Origin: Eubacterium sp.
Lineage (GTDB): Bacteria; Bacillota_A; Clostridia; Lachnospirales; Lachnospiraceae
Assembly (NCBI GenBank): GCA_024687845.1
Contig: JAILEL010000062.1
Location: 1-11,871 of the forward strand
Reading direction: 5' to 3'
Length of the DNA stretch: 11,871 nt
In this document: positions 1,386-11,871 of the stretch, one piece after another
Numbering within the stretch: position 1 is the stretch's first letter
Layout of the letters: each line of letters begins with the position of its first letter
The notes under the pieces: model-generated
Database searches by the model: none
Told to the model about the DNA's origin: nothing
What the model saw: only the letters and a program-made list of their open reading frames with translations
Program-made: the position numbers and the translations under genes

Positions 1386-1400
1386 GTATCCATTGGATAC
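1386..1400 (+). promoter_or_regulatory. Palindrome A, GTATCCATTGGATAC (putative operator)
   Basis: A perfect 7+1+7 palindrome lying 109 bases before the lipoprotein start codon and directly after a terminator. It is followed by TTTTAGGAAAATGGCC and TTTTAGT, similar to the sequence after palindrome C. The leader 1401-1509 has no convincing -35/-10 pair; TATAAA at 1454-1459 is the best -10 candidate. It is one of four copies, all between genes. An operator is the simplest reading; its binding protein is unknown. Confidence 0.6.
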
Positions 1401-1509
1401 TTTTAGGAAAATGGCCGTTTTAGTATTGCGATTTAAAAAATTCTGTAATAGTGTATAAACGCGGATGGTCGATAACTGGTCAGCAAAAAAATAGTGTGAG
1501 GTTATTAAA

Positions 1510-2562
1510 ATGAGGAAAAATGTAAAACTTACTAAAAGAAAAATGATGACTATAGCTGTTGCAATGTCTATTATGGTGGCTGCAACAACAGCTTGTGGTG
1601 GAAGTGACAATGCGAATAATGATGTAACAGAAGCCGTAGTAACAGAAGCAGAAACAACTGAGGCGGCAGAAACGGAAGCTGCTACTGAGGCAGAAACGAC
1701 TGAAGCAGCAGAAACGGAAGCTACTACGGAGGAAGCTAAGGATGAAAATACTGCCAGCGATACAGATGGTGCATCAGCTGAAGTTCCAAATGGTGATGGA
1801 CTTCTTAGTGAAGAAGATGTTCAGAAGGATTATGTATGGCTTGATAAGATCAAGGGTTCTATGTCGTTCCAGCTTACTTATGAGGATGTTAAGGACAGAT
1901 TTGGAGTAGACGGAAAGCTTGATAAGGAAGATTCAGGTGATTCAGGCAACAAGCGTTACTATAAATGGATATCTACAGAGGATGATACACATTTTATATA
2001 CATCAACTTTACTGAAAAGGAAGCTGGTAAGTATATGATCTCATCTTTTAATTCAAGTGGATTCTCAAGTGAGGAAGCAGCTGACAAGTATCTCAGTGAG
2101 TTAGAGAGTGCAGCTCAGGAAGAGAATAAGGAAGCCGCTTCAAATGCCGAAACATCATCAGTAACTGAGGATGTATATCCATTCGCCAGCAAAGACGACG
2201 CAATAAAGATGACATTTGACCTGCCAACTGGGTGGTCATATAAGAATAATTCTGGGAAGCTTAAAATCGTAGAATCAGAAGATGTTGAGGCTTTTGGTGC
2301 AGGATTCATTCAGGTTGAACTTAAGGATAGTGCTGAAAAGCTGGATACATATATTGATAGCTTCGAGAATCTTGCTGATACAGATTCAAGAGAGATAAAT
2401 GGAATTACTATGGCAGGAAGAACATACTCATATATCGGTTATGACTGGACAGAGTACTATGCAGAACTTCCAGATGGTAAGGCTATATCAATTGGTATAG
2501 TCCGTACAGATGTAACAGAGGGAACAATGGGAGACAATATACTTAAGAGCCTGAGTTGGTAG
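1510..2562 (+). CDS. Putative exported lipoprotein with Thr/Glu/Ala-rich stalk
   Basis: The 350-residue product begins with a basic N-terminus (RKNVKLTKRK), a hydrophobic stretch at ~13-25 and a Cys at 29 in the context ATTACGG. That resembles a lipoprotein signal peptide, though the -3 residue is Thr rather than the usual Leu. Residues ~30-93 are a low-complexity acidic Thr/Glu/Ala stalk containing two 14-residue tandem repeats. Domain 1 (~94-196) carries a YEDVKDRFGVDGK motif reminiscent of small membrane-associated lipoprotein folds. A second acidic linker leads to domain 2 (~225-350), with FDLPTGWSYK as in PsbP/Mog1-like folds. Both fold suggestions are weak. GTGAGG at 1496-1501 precedes the ATG by eight bases. 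It probably stands on the outer face of the membrane in the wall. I do not recognise a specific function. Confidence 0.8.
   Translation: MRKNVKLTKRKMMTIAVAMSIMVAATTACGGSDNANNDVTEAVVTEAETTEAAETEAATEAETTEAAETEATTEEAKDENTASDTDGASAEVPNGDGLLSEEDVQKDYVWLDKIKGSMSFQLTYEDVKDRFGVDGKLDKEDSGDSGNKRYYKWISTEDDTHFIYINFTEKEAGKYMISSFNSSGFSSEEAADKYLSELESAAQEENKEAASNAETSSVTEDVYPFASKDDAIKMTFDLPTGWSYKNNSGKLKIVESEDVEAFGAGFIQVELKDSAEKLDTYIDSFENLADTDSREINGITMAGRTYSYIGYDWTEYYAELPDGKAISIGIVRTDVTEGTMGDNILKSLSW
1648..1731 (+). repeat. Two tandem 42-bp repeats encoding the lipoprotein stalk
   Basis: Units 1648-1689 and 1690-1731 differ at only a few bases. Each encodes 14 residues, AETTEAAETEA followed by ATE or TTE. They are in frame with the gene, so copy-number change by slippage would lengthen or shorten the stalk without breaking the protein. 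Confidence 0.85.
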
Positions 2563-2599
2563 ATCTGCTAGTAGGTATAGATTGATGGTTTATGTAAAA

Positions 2600-2614
2600 G
2601 TATCCATTGGATAA
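2600..2614 (+). promoter_or_regulatory. Palindrome B, GTATCCATTGGATAA (putative operator)
   Basis: It matches the 15-bp palindrome except for the last base (A instead of C). It sits 37 bases after the lipoprotein stop and 81 bases before the LRR start at 2696. The altered end creates GATAAT (2610-2615), which resembles a -10 box, but no good -35 lies at the right distance, so no promoter is called. No terminator separates this gene from the lipoprotein gene, so readthrough is possible. Confidence 0.5.
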
Positions 2615-2695
2615 TATACAAAAATCCGCTTTTGATGTAGTATGAGAGCATCAAAAACAGGTCGAATGATCTTGATAGGTGAAAGGAGAAAGAAA

Positions 2696-4819
2696 ATGAG
2701 TATAAGGGAGAAAGGTAAATCTAGCATCTTAATGATTCTGATGCTGGCTGCTATGGCTTTGGTGTTAGTTCCAGACATTCAAGTTCATGCAGAAGATATT
2801 TCTGGAGATATTGGAGATGTGGATTATACGTTTACAGAATCAACTGGTGAACTTAAGATAACATTAAAATCGGGTTCAATTTATGAAAATGCTTCAAATA
2901 ATATAATTGGTAAGGGTGATATTTCTTCTGAAAAAAAGGAGGATTATCCGTGGAATACAAGACGAGATAAGATCAAAAAAATAGTAATAACTGGGAAAGT
3001 AACCCAGATTGGTGATTATGCATTTGCGGATTGTGTAAATCTTGAATCTGTTACTATTCCTGATACGGTAAAATATATTGATAGTAATGCATTTGAGAAC
3101 TCAGGTCTTGAAAGCATTAAAATACCTTCAGGATTAAAATATATTGATAATAATGTTTTTAAAAATTGTACACATTTAAAAACAGTTAACTTTGAGAGTT
3201 ATAATCCAGAAAACTATGATGCCACTATATGGAAAAGTGCATTTGAGGGGTGCACGTCACTTGAATCTATAACAATTCCGGGTTGTTTGTGCGGAATAGA
3301 AGATAATGCTTTTAAGGGTTGTACCAGTTTGAAAGAAGTCAAATTTGTTGAAAATACAGATATGCCACTGTATATTGATGAAAATGCATTTGAAGGTTGT
3401 ACATCAATTACAAAACTGGAATTACCAGGTCGTACTGAATACATCAGATTTGAAGCTTTTAAGAATTGTTCTTCTCTTGAATATGTAAATATCAAAGATA
3501 GCAATTGGTCTTTATTTATCATAGGTGATGCATTTAGTGGATGTCCATTAAAGACAGTATATCTTCCAAAAAGATTTATACAAAAGTCAAACCCATTTGA
3601 TGTTAATAACAAGAAAACAATATATCATCTCTATGCTCCTTCAGAATTCTACAATTTTGCAAAAGAAAACGGGCTTGAGTATGAATTCCAGAATGGTGGA
3701 AGATGTGGAGTGACAGATGAAACTGAGCTTAAATGGTATTATGACGATGATGCCAAGGAACTTGTAATTACAGGAAATGGAAAAATGGCCGATTATCCTG
3801 GCATGAATGCTCCATGGAATACTTTAGCTAAGAGTGCTGAAAAGATCACAGTAGAAGCTGGATGTGCAAATATTGGAGAGAATGCATTTTATAATCTTAC
3901 AAAGGTTAAGGAAGTAAGTCTTGGAGATACTGTTAAGACAATAGGAATAGGAGCTTTTGCAGGAGATACATCTCTTACTACTGTAAGCTTATCCAAGAAT
4001 CTTGATACTATAGAAAATGAAGCATTTATTGGATGTACATCTCTCACAAAGGTTGAGATTCCAAACTCAACTGTATCAATTGGAGATAAGGCATTCTACA
4101 ATTGTTCAGGTCTTAAAGAAATTACTATCCCGGATTCTGTAAAGAATATTGGAGAAGATGTAGTAAAGAATACTTCTAAGGATCTTGAAATCAAGACAAC
4201 TGACGGTTCGGCAGCTGCTGATTATGCTGAAAAGATTGGTGCAAAGTCTTCTGCTAAATCAACTGCAACATTAAAGGCTGAAGCTGAAGCTAAGAAGAAA
4301 GCTGAAGAAGAAGCAAAGAAAAAGGCCGAAGAAGAGGCTAAGAAGAAGGCTGATGAGCAGGCTAAAAAGAAGACTCTTAAAAAGGGAGAGTCATTTACAG
4401 TAGCTGGTTTTACATATAAGGTAACAAAGGCTTCTGCTAATTCAAAGACAGTAGGTACTGCTACACTTACAAAAGCAGCAAAGAAGAATCTTAAGAAAGT
4501 AACTATCGCTACAACAGTTAAATATAACGGAATTACATATAAGATCACAGCAATAGGACCAAATGCATTCAAAGGACAGAAGAAACTTACCTCAGTTACA
4601 ATAGGAACCAACGTAACAAATATTGGAGCTAATGCATTTAATGGATGCGCTTCACTAAAGACAGTTACTATTAAGAGTACAAAGATTACTAAAGTAGGTG
4701 CTGGTGCATTTAAGGGTATCAATAAAAAAGCAACAATCAAAGTTCCAAAGGCAAAGAAGAAGGCTTATACTAAACTTTTTAAAGGTAAGGGACAGGCTAA
4801 GACTGTAAAAATCAAATAG
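2696..4819 (+). CDS. Secreted BspA-like leucine-rich-repeat surface protein
   Basis: From ATG 2696 the product has 707 residues. The frame is open back to an ATG at 2642, but AAAGGAG at 2682-2688, seven bases before 2696, and the signal peptide that begins there fix the start. Residues 1-32 are a signal peptide, probable cleavage VHA/ED. Two units of 'structured beta plus PWN' caps (~33-97 and ~337-380) each precede a block of LRR_5 repeats (PF13306; ~98-290 and ~380-500) with repeated IGDYAF, CTSLESITIP-type units. Residues 528-559 form a charged AEEEAKKK helix linker. Residues ~560-707 are a last pair of LRR units plus the very basic tail shared with neighbouring genes. No LPXTG motif or membrane anchor is seen, so retention through the basic tail is inferred. 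BspA-like LRRs often bind host or matrix proteins; the ligand here is unknown. Confidence 0.92.
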   Translation: MSIREKGKSSILMILMLAAMALVLVPDIQVHAEDISGDIGDVDYTFTESTGELKITLKSGSIYENASNNIIGKGDISSEKKEDYPWNTRRDKIKKIVITGKVTQIGDYAFADCVNLESVTIPDTVKYIDSNAFENSGLESIKIPSGLKYIDNNVFKNCTHLKTVNFESYNPENYDATIWKSAFEGCTSLESITIPGCLCGIEDNAFKGCTSLKEVKFVENTDMPLYIDENAFEGCTSITKLELPGRTEYIRFEAFKNCSSLEYVNIKDSNWSLFIIGDAFSGCPLKTVYLPKRFIQKSNPFDVNNKKTIYHLYAPSEFYNFAKENGLEYEFQNGGRCGVTDETELKWYYDDDAKELVITGNGKMADYPGMNAPWNTLAKSAEKITVEAGCANIGENAFYNLTKVKEVSLGDTVKTIGIGAFAGDTSLTTVSLSKNLDTIENEAFIGCTSLTKVEIPNSTVSIGDKAFYNCSGLKEITIPDSVKNIGEDVVKNTSKDLEIKTTDGSAAADYAEKIGAKSSAKSTATLKAEAEAKKKAEEEAKKKAEEEAKKKADEQAKKKTLKKGESFTVAGFTYKVTKASANSKTVGTATLTKAAKKNLKKVTIATTVKYNGITYKITAIGPNAFKGQKKLTSVTIGTNVTNIGANAFNGCASLKTVTIKSTKITKVGAGAFKGINKKATIKVPKAKKKAYTKLFKGKGQAKTVKIK
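4277..4372 (+). repeat. Four 24-bp repeats encoding a charged AEEEAKKK linker helix
   Basis: Units 4277-4300, 4301-4324, 4325-4348 and 4349-4372 encode AEAEAKKK, AEEEAKKK, AEEEAKKK and ADEQAKKK. The alternating acidic and lysine blocks suit a stiff single alpha helix that holds the LRR domain away from the C-terminal module. The in-frame period allows length variation. Confidence 0.85.
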
Positions 4820-4864
4820 ATAACAGTTTGAGAATACTGATTATAAGACTGGAAGAACCAGCCT
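4793..4864 (+). repeat. Duplicated gene-end module, copy 2
   Basis: This is the counterpart of 1-76: the QAKTVKIK codons, stop codon, GAGAATACTGATTATAA and the left terminator arm. It lacks the four extra bases found after the stop in copy 1. Confidence 0.8.
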
Positions 4865-4900
4865 GGAGAGAGATGATCCTTTAGGGCTGGTTCTTTTTTT
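4853..4900 (+). terminator. Rho-independent terminator of the LRR gene
   Basis: GAACCAGCC (4855-4863) pairs with GGCTGGTTC (4885-4893), extendable by two A-T pairs at the base, and is followed by seven T (4894-4900). It is homologous to the terminator at 68-108. Confidence 0.9.
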
Positions 4901-4905
4901 GAATG

Positions 4906-4920
4906 GTATCCAATGGATAC
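4906..4920 (+). promoter_or_regulatory. Palindrome C, GTATCCAATGGATAC (putative operator)
   Basis: A perfect 15-bp palindrome starting five bases after the LRR terminator. It lies 48 bp upstream of the -35 box of the operon promoter at 4969 and 138 bases before the ATG at 5059. It is followed by TTTTCCAGAAACGCCC and TATTTTAGTGGGTTTCGAGG. Confidence 0.65.
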
Positions 4921-4956
4921 TTTTCCAGAAACGCCCTATTTTAGTGGGTTTCGAGG
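4906..4956 (+). repeat. Left arm of an imperfect inverted repeat flanking the 5059-11273 operon
   Basis: Read on the minus strand this arm runs CCTCGAAA, then CTAAAATAG, then CTGG and finally the palindrome. The same ordered blocks occur on the plus strand at 11301-11344. The two arms therefore face each other across 6.4 kb. Spacing between blocks differs, so the match is imperfect. Confidence 0.5.
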
Positions 4957-4968
4957 GGGTGTTATATA

Positions 4969-4997
4969 TTGAAAAAGATTTTTTTAAAGGGTAAAAT
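4969..4997 (+). promoter_or_regulatory. Promoter of the 5059-11273 operon
   Basis: TTGAAA (4969-4974) and TAAAAT (4992-4997) each match consensus at five of six positions with a 17-bp spacer. The predicted start near 5004 gives a leader of about 55 bases ending in AAAGGA (5047-5052), six bases before the ATG. The promoter at 11370-11399 has the same hexamers. Confidence 0.7.
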
Positions 4998-5058
4998 ATA
5001 ATAAGCAAAGTATCTACTGAACAGCTAATAGAACGAATATAGGAAGAAAGGATTTATA

Positions 5059-7458
5059 ATGAGCAAGGTTTTTGGTAGTAAAAAAATAAATTATTGGAAT
5101 AAATGCATAGGCTTATTTTCTCTTGTTTTATTTGCATTTCTCTTGGTCATAATAGTGCCTGTTTTTTCCATGAAACAATCTTGGGCTGCTGGTGGGACAC
5201 TTAGTGAAGTGATTATTCGGACTCCGGCAGCCGCTGATGGTTGTTATCCGAGTTACGATAATAATGATTTTAAGATTATAACAACAGAGGCATTCATTGA
5301 TACAAGCTATTATGAAGATGAATACGAACATGGTATTTGTTGGTCTAAAACTAGTGATAATACTAAGTTAAAGTTTAATGAGAAATTTACATTTGCTGAT
5401 ACTTACTATGTTCATGTTGTAGTCAAAGCATCTAATGGATATACACTTCCTACAGGCTATAAAGCTTATAAGTTTAAATTCAGAGGATCTGAACTGGCTG
5501 AGGCAGCGTATATTCAGGTTCTTTCTGATGATCGTGTGATAGCTGCTTATGACTATACTGCCAAATCACCATGGAAAGCTATAAATATAGAGATTAAAGA
5601 ACCAGCAGCTGGTGAGCAGGTTTATAAAAATGTGCAGCTGGTGAATCAGGATCCACAGAATTCTTTTTATATGGATTTTGTGAATGAGATAGATATATCA
5701 GGAACCTGGTACGAGTCGAAGGATGGCAAGAATTATTCTTTGATGAATGCTACTGATGTCTATAAAGAGGGATATCATTATAAGACTCTGGCTCCGGAAA
5801 AGGTTCTGAAATATCTGAAAAAATATTTCCTGAGTGAAGCATCGGGTGAGGCACAGACCGACCTTACAGGTGCATATGGTGTATCTGATAAGATTACAAT
5901 AGAAGTAAATGAACATAAAGGTATATATAATTTCAATACAGCAAAATGGGAAAAGTATGGTGAAATCGCTGATGAGAGCTTTGTAAATGGGTATCTTACC
6001 ATGCCTGAAACGAAGGTTCCAGTGAGCGATATTAGAATATATGGCTACAATCCACCGACTACTGGTGAAGAGCGTTCGTATGATAATTTTACCTCTGCGA
6101 AGCCAGGAGAGTATGAGATATATACGGGCTCAGATTCTTCCTTTATGAAAAATGGAATCACCTGGGGGCAGTCAAAGGGAGGTTCGAACTTTGATATTCC
6201 TGTAAGCAGTAAGGAACTTTTTGAAAAGGATAAGGCTTATTACATTTGCATTCATGTACGGGCAGTTAAGGCCGAGGGATTTAGCTCAAACATCAAAAAT
6301 ATCAAGGCTAAAATAGGAAACTATGATGCTGATGTTTCAGTGAGTGAAATATCTGATGATATTCTAGTATTAACACTGAAAAAGGTAGCGCATGATCCGG
6401 TAACGGCTTTTAATTATACTATTCCTGCTCCGGTTCCGGGAGAGAAACCGGATAAGATAGGCTTTAATACAACTCCAGAAAATGCACTTATTACTTCATG
6501 TGAGGTTGATTCTTCAAATAACTGGCAGGTTTCTGATGATGGAATAACCTATAGGAGTATGAAAAACGCAGAAACTGGTGAAGTGGAATCATTTGTTGAA
6601 GGAAAATACTATCGCACCAATATAACAAATTCTCATTATACAATTGCAATACTACTTTATATGTTAGGAAAGTTAGATTTCAATGAGAGTGTATCTTATA
6701 AATTTGGTAATATTCAGGTATATATAAATGGAAGAAAATCAACAGAAGAAGGCGTGCTTGACGCGAATGGATATGTGGTTTTCAAATGTGTGAAGCCAAA
6801 AGATGGTGGATCAGATGGTAAGGAGGGCGGTTCCGGCAACGGAGAAAACGGCGATGGCAAACAGGGGGGATCTGATGGTACAGATCCAGCCAAAGACCTG
6901 ATTGATGGAGTCGGAACCATTTCCCCAAATGGAAAATACCTTACAGATGAAGATGGCAAGAAATACAGAACTTCTGAAAAGGTAAAAGCTACAGAACTAA
7001 AACCAAATATGAAGATTGCCGACAAAAAGACTGGTGGCAAATACAGAATCACAAAGGTTGTAAAGGATCCGGAGACGGGACTGATCACTGGTGGAAATGT
7101 AGAATACATGGCACCATATAACAAGAACTGCAAACTTATCTCAGCAACTGGAATCGTAAAACTCGGTGGTGTTAAGTTCAAGGTTACAAGTATAGCTGCG
7201 AACTGCGCAAAGGGATGTAAGAAGCTGAACAAGGTTATCATAGGTTCTTATATTTCAAACATCGGAAAGAATGCATTTAGCGGATGCAGTAAGCTAAAGA
7301 CAGTGACCTTCAAGGGTTCAAGACTGAAGAAGGTTGGGGCAAATGCTTTCAAGGGTATCAACAAGAAAGCAACTATATCAGTTCCTAAGGCAAAGAAGAA
7401 GGCATATACTAAACTTCTTAAAGGCAAAGGTCAGGCAAAGACTGTAAAGATTAAATAA
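5059..7458 (+). CDS. Large secreted modular surface protein with shared basic C-terminus
   Basis: The 799-residue product starts with a signal peptide (residues 1-~45, hydrophobic core FSLVLFAFLLVIIVPVF, probable cleavage near SWAA/GG). The mature part alternates two module types. Type I (~48-175 and ~322-452) has GI(C/T)W followed by a beta-rich stretch with YYVHVVVKA or YYICIHVRA. Type II (~178-315 and ~455-590) has IPAPVPGE, an NWQVSDDG or TWYESKDG core, EGKYYRT and a YINGRK/NGYVVF end. A Gly/Asp-rich flexible linker spans ~581-614. The C-terminal 182 residues (618-799) contain one LRR_5-like unit and the basic GQAKTVKIK tail. I do not recognise a named family for types I and II; a beta-sandwich adhesin-like role is inferred. 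It is the first gene of an operon with the paralogue 23 bases downstream. Confidence 0.88.
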   Translation: MSKVFGSKKINYWNKCIGLFSLVLFAFLLVIIVPVFSMKQSWAAGGTLSEVIIRTPAAADGCYPSYDNNDFKIITTEAFIDTSYYEDEYEHGICWSKTSDNTKLKFNEKFTFADTYYVHVVVKASNGYTLPTGYKAYKFKFRGSELAEAAYIQVLSDDRVIAAYDYTAKSPWKAINIEIKEPAAGEQVYKNVQLVNQDPQNSFYMDFVNEIDISGTWYESKDGKNYSLMNATDVYKEGYHYKTLAPEKVLKYLKKYFLSEASGEAQTDLTGAYGVSDKITIEVNEHKGIYNFNTAKWEKYGEIADESFVNGYLTMPETKVPVSDIRIYGYNPPTTGEERSYDNFTSAKPGEYEIYTGSDSSFMKNGITWGQSKGGSNFDIPVSSKELFEKDKAYYICIHVRAVKAEGFSSNIKNIKAKIGNYDADVSVSEISDDILVLTLKKVAHDPVTAFNYTIPAPVPGEKPDKIGFNTTPENALITSCEVDSSNNWQVSDDGITYRSMKNAETGEVESFVEGKYYRTNITNSHYTIAILLYMLGKLDFNESVSYKFGNIQVYINGRKSTEEGVLDANGYVVFKCVKPKDGGSDGKEGGSGNGENGDGKQGGSDGTDPAKDLIDGVGTISPNGKYLTDEDGKKYRTSEKVKATELKPNMKIADKKTGGKYRITKVVKDPETGLITGGNVEYMAPYNKNCKLISATGIVKLGGVKFKVTSIAANCAKGCKKLNKVIIGSYISNIGKNAFSGCSKLKTVTFKGSRLKKVGANAFKGINKKATISVPKAKKKAYTKLLKGKGQAKTVKIK
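7096..7458 (+). repeat. Nearly identical 3' coding segment, copy 1 of 2
   Basis: Aligned by eye to 10137-10499, this 363-bp segment differs at about 15 positions (~96% identity), and only one change alters the protein (Ile to Val). The 81 bases just upstream are only about 70% identical, so the boundary is abrupt. Confidence 0.85.
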
Positions 7459-7481
7459 ATATGGATTGGAAGGGGAAAGCC

Positions 7482-10400
7482 ATGAAAAGCAGGAGCAGAT
7501 TCAGAAATGTTATTATTATTTTGTTGATGTCGATGATATTTTCGGTGATAACTCCATTTGCAGGTGCGATAGGTCAGGTTAATGCACATGAGTATTATAT
7601 TGATCATGTTGATGTTGGTCTAATGGCTCCTATTGCTGGAAATAAGCCGGATACCGTGTTAGGTCATTATTCAACGAACAGTGAAGATATTCAGATTAAA
7701 AGTATAAGCTGGAGTTATTATAATGGTGATTCCTGGAAAACGATGGGGTCGGATAAAACTTTTGCAGAAAACCAGAAATATATGGTAACTCTCAGGCTTC
7801 ATCCTGCTTATGCACATACTATAGTAGAATACGTTTCGATGTACACCCCGTATGTAAGAGGGAAAGAGGTAAATCCTTCACATGAAAATCACTGGCAGAA
7901 TGTTACCTGTGATGGAAAGGATATCATATATACCTGTACGCTTATGGGAAGAGAGGGCTGGAGTAAGGCGGAGTTTAATATTCCAGAGCCAATAGTTGGT
8001 TATACTCCGGTATCGTTATCTAAGAAATATAAAGTAGAATTTGTATCAGGATTTGATCATGCATTTAGCAAGACATATCTTGATAAGCTTGATGAATCTT
8101 TGATAACTGAAAACTGGTATGAGTCAAGTGATGGAAAATATTATAATCTGATAAGTAAAACTACAAAGTTTAAGGCAGGGTATTATTATAAAAATGAAGC
8201 TGTACTAACATTAACAGAACAATTAGAGAAAGACTTTTATAAAATAGTATCCTTCCCAACAGAGTCTGATTTACCATATTACGGAATCTCAGACAGCATT
8301 TCGTTTATCATAAATGGTAAAGAGTATAAATCATCAGCATATTCTAATCATGTTAAAGGATATGTAGAATTTGGAAAGATTTATGAAAAAATAAAGTTAG
8401 TCAGACTGGAAAATCTTGTTTATCCTGTAGCAGGACAAGCGGTTAGCACAAATGTTACTACGATAGACGATGATAAGTACAAAGTAGAAAATGTTGTATG
8501 GAGAAAGGAGGGTTTTTCAACTCCAGAAACAGTATTTGAAGCTGGTGATAGATATATTGTTACCATTAAATTAAAAGCAGTCGGCACATATTCATTTAAT
8601 CTTGATATGTTTAAAGATGAAAATACAGTTCCTACAGTTATAAATGGTGAACATGCTGATCCATACGCAAGGAAGTCAGTAAATGCTTATGAGGTTAATC
8701 TTTCTTATCTGTATTATTGCCCAAATATAACTGGAAATAATGGAGTTATAGGAGTTTCTGGTATTGAGCAGCCGGTTGAAGGTGAGGCTCCGGATAAGAA
8801 TATCAGCAAGTGGAGCGTTATATATAAGGATAATAAAGATTATTCCGTTCAAAGTGTAAAATGGACCGAAGATGGCAAGGATACCGAGGCAACAGTATTT
8901 GAAGCAGGCAAGACTTATTATGCAGAAATTGAGCTGAAGGCTGCTTCAGGTAAATATTTTCCTTCTTCGACTCAACAATGTAGAAAGATATACAAAATAA
9001 GTGTAAATGATTCGAAACATTGCTATATAAGTAAGGTAGCACCATGGAATGGTGAATCGATAATAATCACCGCCAAATATGAACCAATAGTTTATATAAA
9101 GGAGATACCAATTATAGGATATAAAGGTCCGGCACCAAAGGTCAAGGCTTCTTATGAAGGCTTTGATATAGATAATGAACAGTGCAGAATATGCAAAACA
9201 GCAGATGATTCTGAGAGAAAAAATGGAATCAGATGGGGTAAGTATGATTCAGTTAGCGATACATTTTATCCAAGTAAGATAAGTGACGAACTTACATTTG
9301 AAGAGAATAATGGATATATGGTGGAAATTATGATTAATTCACCAGATGGATACAAATTCCCAGGCAATCTGTCAACCGTAAAGGTAAGCATTAATGGTAC
9401 TACCAAGAATGTAAAGATTAGAAAGGAATCTGTAGATACGGCGATTGTAACATTTTCAAGTAAGGTTCTGGAACAGATCAAGGAGATCAGATACACTATT
9501 CCGGAACCGAAGAATGGCGAAAAACCAGGAAATATGAAGGTTGAGACGAAGCCTGCGAATGCATTTAATGATATTCTGATGGATATGGATATGAGTTCAA
9601 GCTGGCAGGTTTCAACAGATAATACAACCTATGTAGATATGCCTGAGAATGGTACATTTGAAGAGGGAAAATATTATCGAACAAACGCGGTAGGAAAACA
9701 TGCGCTGCTTATTATTGTTTCCGGAATTCTTGGGAAGGCATATAGGGAGAATGTCGCAAGCGGATTTGCGAGTGATTATAAGATCTATGTAAATGGTAAG
9801 AATTCAAAAGACGATGGCGTATATGATGAAGATGGTTATGTAAGATTCTATGTTCCAAGGCAGGATGAGATAGTTAAACCTGATGATGGAAAGCAGGAAG
9901 ACGGCAAGCAGGAAGACGGGAAAAATGGTAAGGCTGAAAAGAAACCTGGTGTTGGAACAATCTCTGCTGATGGCAAGACTCTTACAGATGAATCTGGCAA
10001 GAAATACAAGATAGCTGAGAAGATATCAGCGGCCGACCTTAAGCCGAATGCTAAGATTGCTGATAAGAAGAGCGGTGGAAAGTACAGAATTACCAAGCTG
10101 ATTAAGGACAAGAAGACGGGCAAGGTTACAGGCGGGAATGTAGAATACATGGCGCCTTATAACAAGAACTGCAAACTTATCTCAGCAACCGGAATCGTAA
10201 AGCTTGGAGGTGTTAAGTTCAAGGTTACAAGCATAGCTGCGAACTGCGCAAAGGGATGTAAGAAGCTGAACAAGGTTATCATAGGTTCTTATGTTTCAAA
10301 CATCGGAAAGAATGCATTTAGCGGATGCAGTAAGCTGAAGACAGTAACCTTCAAGGGTTCAAGACTGAAGAAGGTTGGGGCAAATGCTTTCAAGGGTATC

Positions 10401-10499
10401 AACAAGAAAGCAACTATATCAGTTCCTAAGGCTAAGAAGAAGGCATATACCAAACTTCTTAAGGGCAAAGGCCAGGCAAAGACAGTAAAGATTAAATAA
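7482..10499 (+). CDS. Large secreted modular surface protein, paralogue of the preceding gene
   Basis: From ATG 7482 the protein has 1005 residues. An in-frame ATG at 7461 lies only two bases after the previous stop and has no ribosome binding site, whereas AAGGGG at 7470-7475 serves 7482. Residues 1-35 are a signal peptide (RSRFRNVIIILLMSMIF core, cleavage VNA/HE). Module order, by the same two types as the previous protein, is about I (36-168), II (170-305), I (306-425), I (430-540), I (542-672), II (673-805). Typical motifs are VKWTEDGK, FEAGKTYYAEIELKA, GIRWG and SSWQVSTDN with EEGKYYRT. A GKQED repeat linker (~806-823) leads to the 182-residue C-terminal module (824-1005), almost identical to that of its neighbour. 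No sortase motif or transmembrane anchor is seen. Function unknown; an adhesin or wall-associated role is inferred. Confidence 0.88.
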   Translation: MKSRSRFRNVIIILLMSMIFSVITPFAGAIGQVNAHEYYIDHVDVGLMAPIAGNKPDTVLGHYSTNSEDIQIKSISWSYYNGDSWKTMGSDKTFAENQKYMVTLRLHPAYAHTIVEYVSMYTPYVRGKEVNPSHENHWQNVTCDGKDIIYTCTLMGREGWSKAEFNIPEPIVGYTPVSLSKKYKVEFVSGFDHAFSKTYLDKLDESLITENWYESSDGKYYNLISKTTKFKAGYYYKNEAVLTLTEQLEKDFYKIVSFPTESDLPYYGISDSISFIINGKEYKSSAYSNHVKGYVEFGKIYEKIKLVRLENLVYPVAGQAVSTNVTTIDDDKYKVENVVWRKEGFSTPETVFEAGDRYIVTIKLKAVGTYSFNLDMFKDENTVPTVINGEHADPYARKSVNAYEVNLSYLYYCPNITGNNGVIGVSGIEQPVEGEAPDKNISKWSVIYKDNKDYSVQSVKWTEDGKDTEATVFEAGKTYYAEIELKAASGKYFPSSTQQCRKIYKISVNDSKHCYISKVAPWNGESIIITAKYEPIVYIKEIPIIGYKGPAPKVKASYEGFDIDNEQCRICKTADDSERKNGIRWGKYDSVSDTFYPSKISDELTFEENNGYMVEIMINSPDGYKFPGNLSTVKVSINGTTKNVKIRKESVDTAIVTFSSKVLEQIKEIRYTIPEPKNGEKPGNMKVETKPANAFNDILMDMDMSSSWQVSTDNTTYVDMPENGTFEEGKYYRTNAVGKHALLIIVSGILGKAYRENVASGFASDYKIYVNGKNSKDDGVYDEDGYVRFYVPRQDEIVKPDDGKQEDGKQEDGKNGKAEKKPGVGTISADGKTLTDESGKKYKIAEKISAADLKPNAKIADKKSGGKYRITKLIKDKKTGKVTGGNVEYMAPYNKNCKLISATGIVKLGGVKFKVTSIAANCAKGCKKLNKVIIGSYVSNIGKNAFSGCSKLKTVTFKGSRLKKVGANAFKGINKKATISVPKAKKKAYTKLLKGKGQAKTVKIK
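10137..10499 (+). repeat. Nearly identical 3' coding segment, copy 2 of 2
   Basis: This is the partner of 7096-7458 and has the same 363-bp length with no insertion or deletion. It ends exactly at the stop codon; downstream sequences are unrelated, unlike the 1-76/4793-4864 pair. Confidence 0.85.
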
Positions 10500-10526
10500 G
10501 GATAGTCACAAAAGGAGAGATAGAAT

Positions 10527-11273
10527 ATGGGTTTTTTAGACAAGTTTAAAGGGACAACAGAAGTACCAGGCACGGTAAGTCTTGAGAAGAAGACGGCATT
10601 ATCATTAAAGAAAGAGGAGATACACAAGATCTCACTTACAAAGCAGACCAGAAATGGGACAACTCCACTAAATGGACTCAAGGCTAGAGTTCTGCTTGCC
10701 ATGGACTTCAGTGGATCAATGAACAGGATGTTTAAGGATGGCACAGTTCAGGCTATTCTGGAGCAGATGCTTCCTATGGCAATGGAGTTCGATGATGATG
10801 GACAGATGGAGGTATGGCTGTTTGATAATGATTTCAGAAGACTTCCCGATATTACTCTAAATAATGTAGAAGATTATGTTCAGAGAGAAATACTTGCAAA
10901 CAAATGGCATATGGGCGGAACAAATTATGCTCCTGTAATGCAGGATATTACAAGAGTATGTGTTGAGACAAATGCAAGAGAAGGAAAACTGCCGGCTTAT
11001 GTTATATTTATTACAGACGGAGCAAATGCAGATAAAACAGCTACTAAAAAAATAATTAAGGAAGCGTCCTTCTATCCGATCTTTTGGAAATATGTCGGAA
11101 TAGGTGGTGAGTCCTTCCCATTCCTTGAGAGACTTGATGATCTGACAGACAGAAATGTTGATAATGCAGATTACTTTGCAGTATTTGATCCTTCTGATAT
11201 TACATATGACCAGTTACTTGAGGAATTTCCAGACTGGCTTGAGTATGATCAGGTTAAGGGAATGCTGATGTGA
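10527..11273 (+). CDS. TerF-type von Willebrand factor A domain protein (cytosolic)
   Basis: The 248-residue protein has a short N-terminal region (~1-50) and a vWA domain (~51-248). The MIDAS metal site is complete: D60, S62 and S64 in MDFSGSM, T132 in GGTNY and D164 in FITDGAN. The FDDDGQMEVWLFD strand, the DNADYFAVFDPSDI segment and the EEFPDWL ending match the vWA-TerF-like family (PF10138), known from tellurite/stress ter gene clusters. No signal peptide or membrane segment is seen, so it should be cytosolic. AAAGGAG at 10511-10517 precedes the ATG by nine bases. It lies 27 bases after the second modular gene with no terminator between, so it is the third gene of that operon. No TerD-type partner is visible in this window. 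Why a cytosolic MIDAS protein is co-transcribed with exported proteins is unclear. Confidence 0.9.
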   Translation: MGFLDKFKGTTEVPGTVSLEKKTALSLKKEEIHKISLTKQTRNGTTPLNGLKARVLLAMDFSGSMNRMFKDGTVQAILEQMLPMAMEFDDDGQMEVWLFDNDFRRLPDITLNNVEDYVQREILANKWHMGGTNYAPVMQDITRVCVETNAREGKLPAYVIFITDGANADKTATKKIIKEASFYPIFWKYVGIGGESFPFLERLDDLTDRNVDNADYFAVFDPSDITYDQLLEEFPDWLEYDQVKGMLM

Positions 11274-11300
11274 ACTGCTCTTAGCTGTTAATATGTAAAA

Positions 11301-11344
11301 CCTCGAAAAATGGCTAAAATAGTGGGCTGGTATCCAATGGATAC
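11301..11344 (-). repeat. Right arm of the imperfect inverted repeat flanking the operon
   Basis: CCTCGAAA (11301-11308), CTAAAATAG (11314-11322), CTGG and the palindrome appear in the same order as on the minus strand of 4906-4956. It follows the vWA stop by 27 bases. No ordinary hairpin terminator was found between 11274 and 11329. Confidence 0.5.
11330..11344 (+). promoter_or_regulatory. Palindrome D, GTATCCAATGGATAC (putative operator)
   Basis: A perfect 15-bp palindrome, identical to copy C. It ends 25 bp before the -35 box of the next gene, against 48 bp for copy C. It is the only copy whose conserved flank lies on the upstream side. Confidence 0.65.
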
Positions 11345-11369
11345 TTTGCGGGTTTGGCGCATTTTTCTA

Positions 11370-11399
11370 TTGAAAACAGTTATGTAAGTAAGATAAAAT
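11370..11399 (+). promoter_or_regulatory. Promoter of the Ig-like protein gene
   Basis: TTGAAA (11370-11375) and TAAAAT (11394-11399) with an 18-bp spacer, the same hexamers as the promoter at 4969-4997. The predicted start near 11406 gives a leader of about 90 bases that contains a nine-codon ORF. Confidence 0.65.
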
Positions 11400-11497: not shown

Positions 11498-11871
11498 ATG
11501 AAGAACGAAATATCAAAAGTGCTTCGTGCAAAAGTACTTGGAATTATGCTTGCTTTAGTTCTTGCAATCTCTGTAATTGCTTCAGTAAATTCTTCTGAAG
11601 CTGCTGCAAAGAAATCAAAAATCAAGTTATCCAGTTCCAAGGTAACAGTAGTTGCATTGAAGACAACTCAGCTTACGCTGAAGAACGGCACTAAGAAGAT
11701 TAAGTCAGGGGTTAAGTGGTCATCTTCAAATAAGAAGATTGCTACTGTTAATAGAAAGGGATTAGTAACAGCTAAGACTCCTGGAAAAGTAAAGATTACT
11801 GCTACATACAAAGGAAAGAAATATGTATGTAATGTAACAGTTAAGGCTCCTGCTCTTAAGCTTAATAAGAA
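11498..11871 (+). CDS. Secreted lysine-rich protein with Ig-like Big_2 domain (partial, 3' end outside window)
   Basis: The visible 124 codons begin at ATG 11498, with AAAGGA at 11481-11486 (11 bases upstream, a little far). An in-frame ATG at 11486 lies inside that site and is less likely. Residues ~1-37 are a signal peptide with the hydrophobic stretch VLGIMLALVLAISVIASV and probable cleavage after EAAA. Residues ~40-117 show a bacterial Ig-like domain, group 2 (PF02368): KLSSSKVTVV at the start, the VKWSSSNKKIATVNRKGLVT core and a TPGKVKITATYKGKKY end. It is rich in Lys, so cationic like the C-terminal modules of its neighbours. Its rear part is not in the window, so I cannot tell whether it has more Ig repeats, an enzyme domain or the shared tail. 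It is preceded by its own palindrome and promoter. Confidence 0.9.
   Translation, partial: MKNEISKVLRAKVLGIMLALVLAISVIASVNSSEAAAKKSKIKLSSSKVTVVALKTTQLTLKNGTKKIKSGVKWSSSNKKIATVNRKGLVTAKTPGKVKITATYKGKKYVCNVTVKAPALKLNK

Follow-up and report, generated by a model that had tools for sequence, protein, structure and literature searches.

The contig JAILEL010000062.1 of a Eubacterium sp. assembly (GCA_024687845.1; Lachnospiraceae), called the window here in its full length of 11,871 nucleotides, contains four copies of a 15-bp palindrome, a dyad centred on one base, each ahead of a gene for an exported protein. What is this palindrome for? To our knowledge little is known of how the Lachnospiraceae of gut and rumen control their many leucine-rich repeat (LRR) and Ig-like surface proteins. 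A preliminary description, made from the sequence of the window, had taken the copies as sites of a surface-protein regulon under one uncharacterised regulator. In our view the palindrome is likely to serve as operator for a single dimeric transcription factor which activates a dispersed surface-protein regulon. A single DNA-binding protein probably turns on the genes that carry the site as a group, because the palindrome lies at a fixed distance ahead of many surface-protein promoters.

The palindrome in the window and in other genomes

A scan of the window at up to three mismatches gave six matches; 200 shuffles gave 0.33 on average and 3 at most. Four of them are the copies of the preliminary description (Table 1), three exact and the fourth with a single change of the last base from C to A, the other two are 3-mismatch matches within coding sequence, at 4073 and 5428. 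As had been described, all four copies are intergenic and precede genes for products that begin with a hydrophobic stretch, and there is no copy in the hicA leader, in the gaps inside the gene run 5059–11273 or, apart from the two 3-mismatch matches, in coding sequence. The distance from copy to gene is 81–153 bp.

A genome collection of 84,980 species was scanned for GTATCCAWTGGATACTTT, a pattern that includes a TTT beside the palindrome. Of the 55 stretches found, 39 belong by record title to Lachnospiraceae, 'Eubacterium sp.', Butyrivibrio or one Clostridia record, and many of these come from ruminant stomachs. The remaining 16 are scattered over other groups; the estimate of chance matches is about 15. 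Clade sites and chance sites were separated by record title, before counting. Loci are numbered below with L and genomes with G.

The genome RGIG8032 (G001) contains 13 exact copies where 0.007 were expected, no one-mismatch copy, and four two-mismatch copies against three for a reversed control. In the genus group the exact 15-mer is present in 11 of 61 genomes, the reversed control pattern in none. Two of the 11 (G016 and G042) have a single copy each, within coding sequence; with these set aside, sites of the clade type are found in nine genomes, which hold 36 exact 15-mers. The motif is limited to a clade, consisting of part of the genus group plus a few outliers (G007, G008, RUI043), because 50 of the remaining 52 genomes have no exact copy and two have a coding copy only. 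A relaxed motif (GTATYN5RATACTTTT) was found once or twice each in 11 further genomes, 13 matches in all; the control pattern gave 11 across the 61 genomes, and no additional clade is thus indicated. A comparison of the window with plasmids gave no match. The motif is present in one viral contig, probably by chance.

The 15-mer is unusually invariant, in G001 as if kept identical by exchange, and the right flanks of one pair of G001 sites are 90% identical. Both features would suit a recombinase site, or what is left of a dispersed repeat by which promoters are brought to surface-protein genes. However, the 13 G001 sites have unrelated left flanks (mean identity 0.31), and the similarity of the right flanks (mean 0.45) consists mostly of promoter elements. 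Single changes are tolerated in G005, and the sites remain before orthologous genes in different species, as described below. A role in recombination is therefore very unlikely.

Direction of the motif and its distance to the promoter

The motif is directional. A G precedes the palindrome in 97% of 40 aligned sites, and TTTT follows on one side in 35 of the 36 exact 15-mers of the nine site-bearing genomes, in a search whose pattern did not include TTT. A 6-bp inverted repeat followed by TTTT could also act in RNA, as a GUAUCC/GGAUAC hairpin with a run of U's that terminates transcription of the preceding gene, and in the window all four copies lie 37–86 bp past the end of such a gene. At L030, L034, L035 and L047, however, the upstream neighbour is a divergent gene, which leaves no transcript to terminate, and the fixed spacing to the downstream -35 would be left unexplained. 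The copies are not among the terminator-like structures listed by the window scan, yet it finds a separate terminator at 1348–1375, before the 1386 copy. The combination typical of intrinsic terminators, a stable hairpin plus U-run after a co-directional gene, is not what the sites present, and we regard this explanation as barely credible.

Neither the window nor any of nine loci has an Rfam match at the gathering threshold, and the leaders are generally unstructured (z below -2.5 in three of 36). One locus of another kind is L013 in G007, where at about 3600–3667 on the minus strand an exact site and a TTGACA/TATACT promoter are followed by no long open reading frame nearby. The transcript predicted there opens with a long hairpin (-34 kcal/mol, z -7.56) whose loop contains GGAGG; it has no Rfam match and is possibly a small RNA of the regulon.

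The TTG of the -35 begins exactly 25 bp after the palindrome (+25) in 26 of 42 exact clade sites and at +36, one helical turn more, in 12; one or other position is occupied in 36 of the 42, against an average of 0.019 per site for other offsets. Among exact matches in other groups, taken as chance sites, the fit is 2/17. One-mismatch sites, which were not used in finding the rule, fit in six of 16 cases (6/14 as counted, plus L013 2807 and window 2600, neither of which fits). In these counts L031 was entered on both strands, and L004 and L022 (contig end) and L024 (whose key is shared with L009; TTG at +36) were left out.

A GGCnnTTTT stretch stands at a fixed place after the palindrome in both classes (26 sites at +25, 10 at +36). 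The 10 sites of the +36 class have 11 extra bp and a second GGCnnTTTT stretch 11 bp further on, adjoining the -35, and thus show the same elements as the +25 class both beside the palindrome and beside the -35. Assuming the usual distances from -35 to transcription start, the centres of the dyad would lie near -69, -80 and -91. The operator is wholly upstream of the -35 and its distances step by whole helical turns, as at class I activator promoters, a geometry which argues for an activator that binds upstream of RNA polymerase.

The geometry also bears on whether the palindrome is instead bound by a protein that represses these genes, alone or by looping. Palindromic operators are common for repressors. 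At L051 in G009 (3598–3652) two palindromes lie 40 bp apart with one small membrane-protein gene downstream, and the sites at L031 and L129 are close enough to the start codon (63–64 bp) to overlap the promoter. A protein bound at most of the exact sites, with 36 of 42 wholly upstream of the -35 at +25 or +36, would nevertheless be no block to polymerase, and the step of one turn is the pattern of class I activators. Repression is thus unlikely. Like the recombination and RNA hairpin roles, it fits the sites less well than a dimeric activator.

In the mechanism that we propose, a dimer would bind G-GTATCCAWTGGATAC-TTTT at sigma-A-type promoters, with its centre near -69, -80 or -91. From that side of the helix it would be able to recruit RNA polymerase (class I activation), probably through contact of the alpha C-terminal domain with the conserved GGCnnTTTT stretch. 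The targets activated would comprise exported proteins (BspA-type LRR, Big_2/Ig-like and others), small membrane proteins, an operon of CHASE2-HD-GYP and FecR-domain genes, and a few proteins that are probably cytosolic. That a single protein binds all the sites, activates the genes and touches the polymerase is what we infer from this arrangement, as is the one uncharacterised regulator of the preliminary description.

Target genes and their conservation

The targets were surveyed in 53 rows with at most one mismatch, from 12 genomes or records including the window; five rows have no gene start within 220 bp. The survey left out five sites at a contig end or with no gene in view (L004, L016, L021, L022, L133) and two one-mismatch sites that lie inside genes (L125, L127). 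Seven sites had their direction assigned manually so as to point to the gene. Genes were called, and signal peptides judged, by simple scripts. Where the gene start is in view, it lies 63–207 bp from the site.

Of the 48 targets, 41 begin with a signal peptide or hydrophobic membrane N-terminus; among 150 other genes of the same loci the number is 38 (P 1e-13). Four of the seven targets that fail the rule (L008, L028, L134 and L050) look signal-peptide-like by eye. In RGIG8032 all 13 exact sites are 86–133 bp upstream of a gene, one of them (L015) overlapping the 3' end of the preceding gene; the simple rule makes 11 of the 13 products exported or membrane proteins, and the other two are signal-peptide-like by eye. 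The surface-protein regulon of the preliminary description is thus largely supported, and its expectation that most sites in related genomes would precede genes for exported proteins was borne out.

Domains found in the targets include LRR_5, Big_2, fn3, Flg_new, DUF6273 and He_PIG. The target at L030 encodes CHASE2 with HD domains (HD-GYP) and is followed by a gene for a FecR-domain protein, so that a gene of the cyclic di-GMP (c-di-GMP) phosphodiesterase type is among the targets. Genes without a signal peptide that stand behind some of the sites encode zinc-ribbon, DUF4428 and vWA-TerF-like proteins (window 10527–11273; L001 1508–2254; L122; L126). Because such genes lie behind some of the promoters, there are hints of an envelope-stress side to the regulon.

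Conservation in relatives, also expected by the preliminary description, was found: sites are kept ahead of orthologous genes across species. The product of window gene 1510 is 70% identical to that of L045 (RGIG7096), which has an exact copy 95 bp upstream, TTGCGG at +25 and the -10 TAGGAT. The product of window gene 2696 shares 52% identity with that of L012 (RGIG8178), where an exact copy has TTGGAA at +25. The site is kept at the CHASE2-HD-GYP operons of L030 and L047 (76% identity), the 76% identical orthologue of L030 in LC2019 having a site of its own. The site is also kept before a membrane protein of 137–144 amino acids (aa) at L002, L043 and L051 (75–79% identity), before a protein of 577–590 aa at L015, L031 and L129 (33–49%), and in the pairs L028/L050 (57%) and L024/L034 (56%); in the pair L008/L134 (68%) it differs by one base.

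The four loci of the window are given in Table 1. The -35 candidate at 1426 is absent from the promoter scan listing of the window, and an alternative pair TTTAAA/TATAAA at +31 of the same palindrome scores equally with TTGCGA/TAGTGT. The copy at 2600 is possibly weak or decayed, because the promoter geometry is missing there though it is present at the related L012.

Table 1. Palindrome copies, promoter elements and target genes in the window
Feature	Position	Strand	Remark
Palindrome GTATCCATTGGATAC, exact	1386..1400	+	TTTT side towards gene 1510
-35 candidate TTGCGA	1426..1431	+	25 bp after palindrome 1386
Weak -10 TAGTGT for the 1426 -35 candidate	1449..1454	+	17-bp spacer
Target gene, exported lipoprotein-like protein, 350 aa	1510..2562	+	no Pfam match
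Palindrome copy with one change, GTATCCATTGGATAA	2600..2614	+	TTT side away from gene; no TTG at +25/+36
Target gene, BspA-type LRR_5 surface protein, signal peptide	2696..4819	+	
Palindrome GTATCCAATGGATAC, exact	4906..4920	+	
Promoter TTGAAA-17-TAAAAT	4969..4997	+	-35 starts 48 bp after palindrome (25 plus about two turns)
Target gene, exported protein, C-terminal LRR_5 repeats	5059..7458	+	heads run 5059–11273
Second gene of run, exported protein, C-terminal LRR_5 repeats	7482..10499	+	start 7461 or 7482
Third gene of run, vWA protein, TerF-like	10527..11273	+	PF10138, E 8.8e-62; no signal peptide seen
Palindrome GTATCCAATGGATAC, exact	11330..11344	+	
GGC...TTTT stretch between palindrome and -35	11356..11366	+	resembles column consensus of other sites
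Promoter TTGAAA-18-TAAAAT	11370..11399	+	-35 starts 25 bp after palindrome
Target gene, exported Big_2 (bacterial Ig-like) protein	11498..11871	+	extends past window end

Two other features of the window concern its surface-protein genes. The genes ending at 27, 4819, 7458 and 10499 have the common C-terminus QAKTVKIK, and the sequence after 27 closely resembles that after 4819, as if gene ends had been exchanged between paralogues. Between surface-protein genes, at 304–1333, are genes for a HicA-like toxin (PF07927), a HicB-like antitoxin (PF15919) and an Xre regulator (PF13443), with no palindrome copy ahead of them.

Candidate regulators and comparable regulons

Several families were considered as the source of the regulator. 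The CRP-type helix-turn-helix (HTH) domain (PF13545) is over cut-off in three of the nine site-bearing genomes, whose completeness is unstated (G003, G030 and, barely, G004), and so is out of line with the sites; it is not over cut-off in the 13-site genome G001. The C-terminal domain of PlcR-type (RNPP) regulators (PF18768) is found in none of the nine and in five of the 61 genus-group genomes, once over cut-off; other TPR regulators would still be candidates. One membrane protein of 163 aa, encoded in G003 by a gene with a site, has relatives in six of the 61 genomes, five of them site-bearing. The other six loci examined have no match at up to three mismatches nearby, and by eye the relatives resemble paired membrane/zinc-ribbon proteins, it was not accepted as the regulator.

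The Xre family was sampled: there are 116 HTH_3 matches in seven site-bearing genomes, of which part were fetched (for example seven of 35 in G002). An Xre protein encoded beside thymidylate synthase is present in all seven, and is uninformative because it is also present in 54 of the 61 genus-group genomes. An Xre protein encoded beside ispF matches with E below 1e-12 in exactly six of the 61 genomes, all site-bearing (L282–L287: G004, G005, G009, G001, G002, G010). Its gene lies between a gene that by eye resembles a wall-polymer transferase and a small membrane-protein gene adjoining ispF. It is missing at that locus in the site-bearing G003 and G030. The locus has no palindrome match at up to three mismatches, and other inverted repeats lie upstream in three of the six. 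We treat this protein as a weak lead.

A number of observations weigh against a single activator of surface-protein genes. No regulator was found among the CRP-type HTH proteins, the PlcR-type domain and the sampled Xre family, and 52 of the 61 genus-group genomes, the 50 and two described above, are without sites of the clade type. Orthologues of the CHASE2-HD-GYP gene in G029 and G039, genomes with no exact site, have nothing below 6–7 mismatches upstream; their gene order is different. TTG is absent from +25 and +36 in six of 42 exact clade sites, namely L015, L031 (on two strands), L019 (TTG at +26), L021 (+37) and window 4906 (+48), and in 10 of 16 one-mismatch sites. At the window 2600 copy geometry and orientation are both broken. 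The sites at L031 and L129, so near the start codon, may act differently, and L125 and L127, which are among the 10 one-mismatch sites without that TTG, are inside genes. A cytosolic location is probable for the products of three of the 48 targets, L126 (zinc ribbon), L122 (DUF4428) and L124 (by eye a D-Ala-D-Ala ligase).

The motif, with its enrichment, direction, spacing, target classes and conservation at orthologous genes, nevertheless delimits a real and well-bounded regulon. It is apparently undescribed; neither the 15-mer nor its 13-bp core has a match in the open-licence PMC papers searched, a scope outside which most subscription papers fall. What this analysis adds to the preliminary description is the rule of spacing, the restriction to a clade and the HD-GYP target. 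The site, one 15-mer at two main distances, is sharp enough to predict the regulon across genomes of the clade, and its definition allows the regulator to be pulled down with one oligonucleotide. A wider proposal is conceivable but rather doubtful. In this Lachnospiraceae clade, many of whose members are from ruminants, a new global activator, from a family to which no such role has so far been ascribed, might set much of the surface coat through one strict 15-bp operator with a one-turn spacing rule; it might be tied to c-di-GMP turnover, because the operator would also drive the CHASE2-HD-GYP operon. With the site so sharply defined, it can be asked whether c-di-GMP and adhesion are coupled.

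Three known systems can be compared with the proposed activator. Sites of the CRP/FNR type are even-length dyads of the form TGTGA-N6-TCACA, and the 15-bp dyad here is not of that form. According to the part of the work cited, Escherichia coli CRP is active at -61.5, -71.5/-72.5 and -81.5/-82.5, with little activity at -66.5 or -76.5 (PMC6301791). A site wholly upstream of the -35 and a periodicity of one turn are common to CRP class I promoters and the sites described here (PMC6301791). The palindrome differs from the CRP site in its sequence, in its predicted centres of about -69, -80 and -91 and in its odd-length dyad.

BldD of Streptomyces is a regulator with an Xre-type fold. The portion of the study cited gives its site as a 13-bp pseudo-palindrome, TNAC-N5-GTNA, controlling about 167 transcription units and tied to c-di-GMP (PMC4151990). 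The likeness to BldD lies in a dimer, here a putative one, on an odd-length dyad and in the link to c-di-GMP, here through the HD-GYP target; in contrast, BldD as described there represses development genes, and the site sequences differ (PMC4151990).

The PlcR regulon of Bacillus cereus is the closest working parallel, and a parallel only, since box and regulator family both fail the comparison. The PlcR box is a 16-bp TATGnAnnnnTnCATA in the section cited (PMC2464732), whereas the box here is the 15-bp GTATCCAWTGGATAC, and PF18768 is found in none of the nine site-bearing genomes. The PlcR boxes described there stand at various distances from the -35, whereas here there are mainly two. In the same section the PlcR regulon has 28 boxes and 45 controlled genes, 40 of whose products are exported (PMC2464732). 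The regulon described here resembles it in that most targets are exported (41/48) and the sites lie ahead of sigma-A-type promoters (36/42), and shares with it, as far as that section goes, dispersed palindromic boxes, AT-rich surroundings and some environment-sensing targets (PMC2464732).

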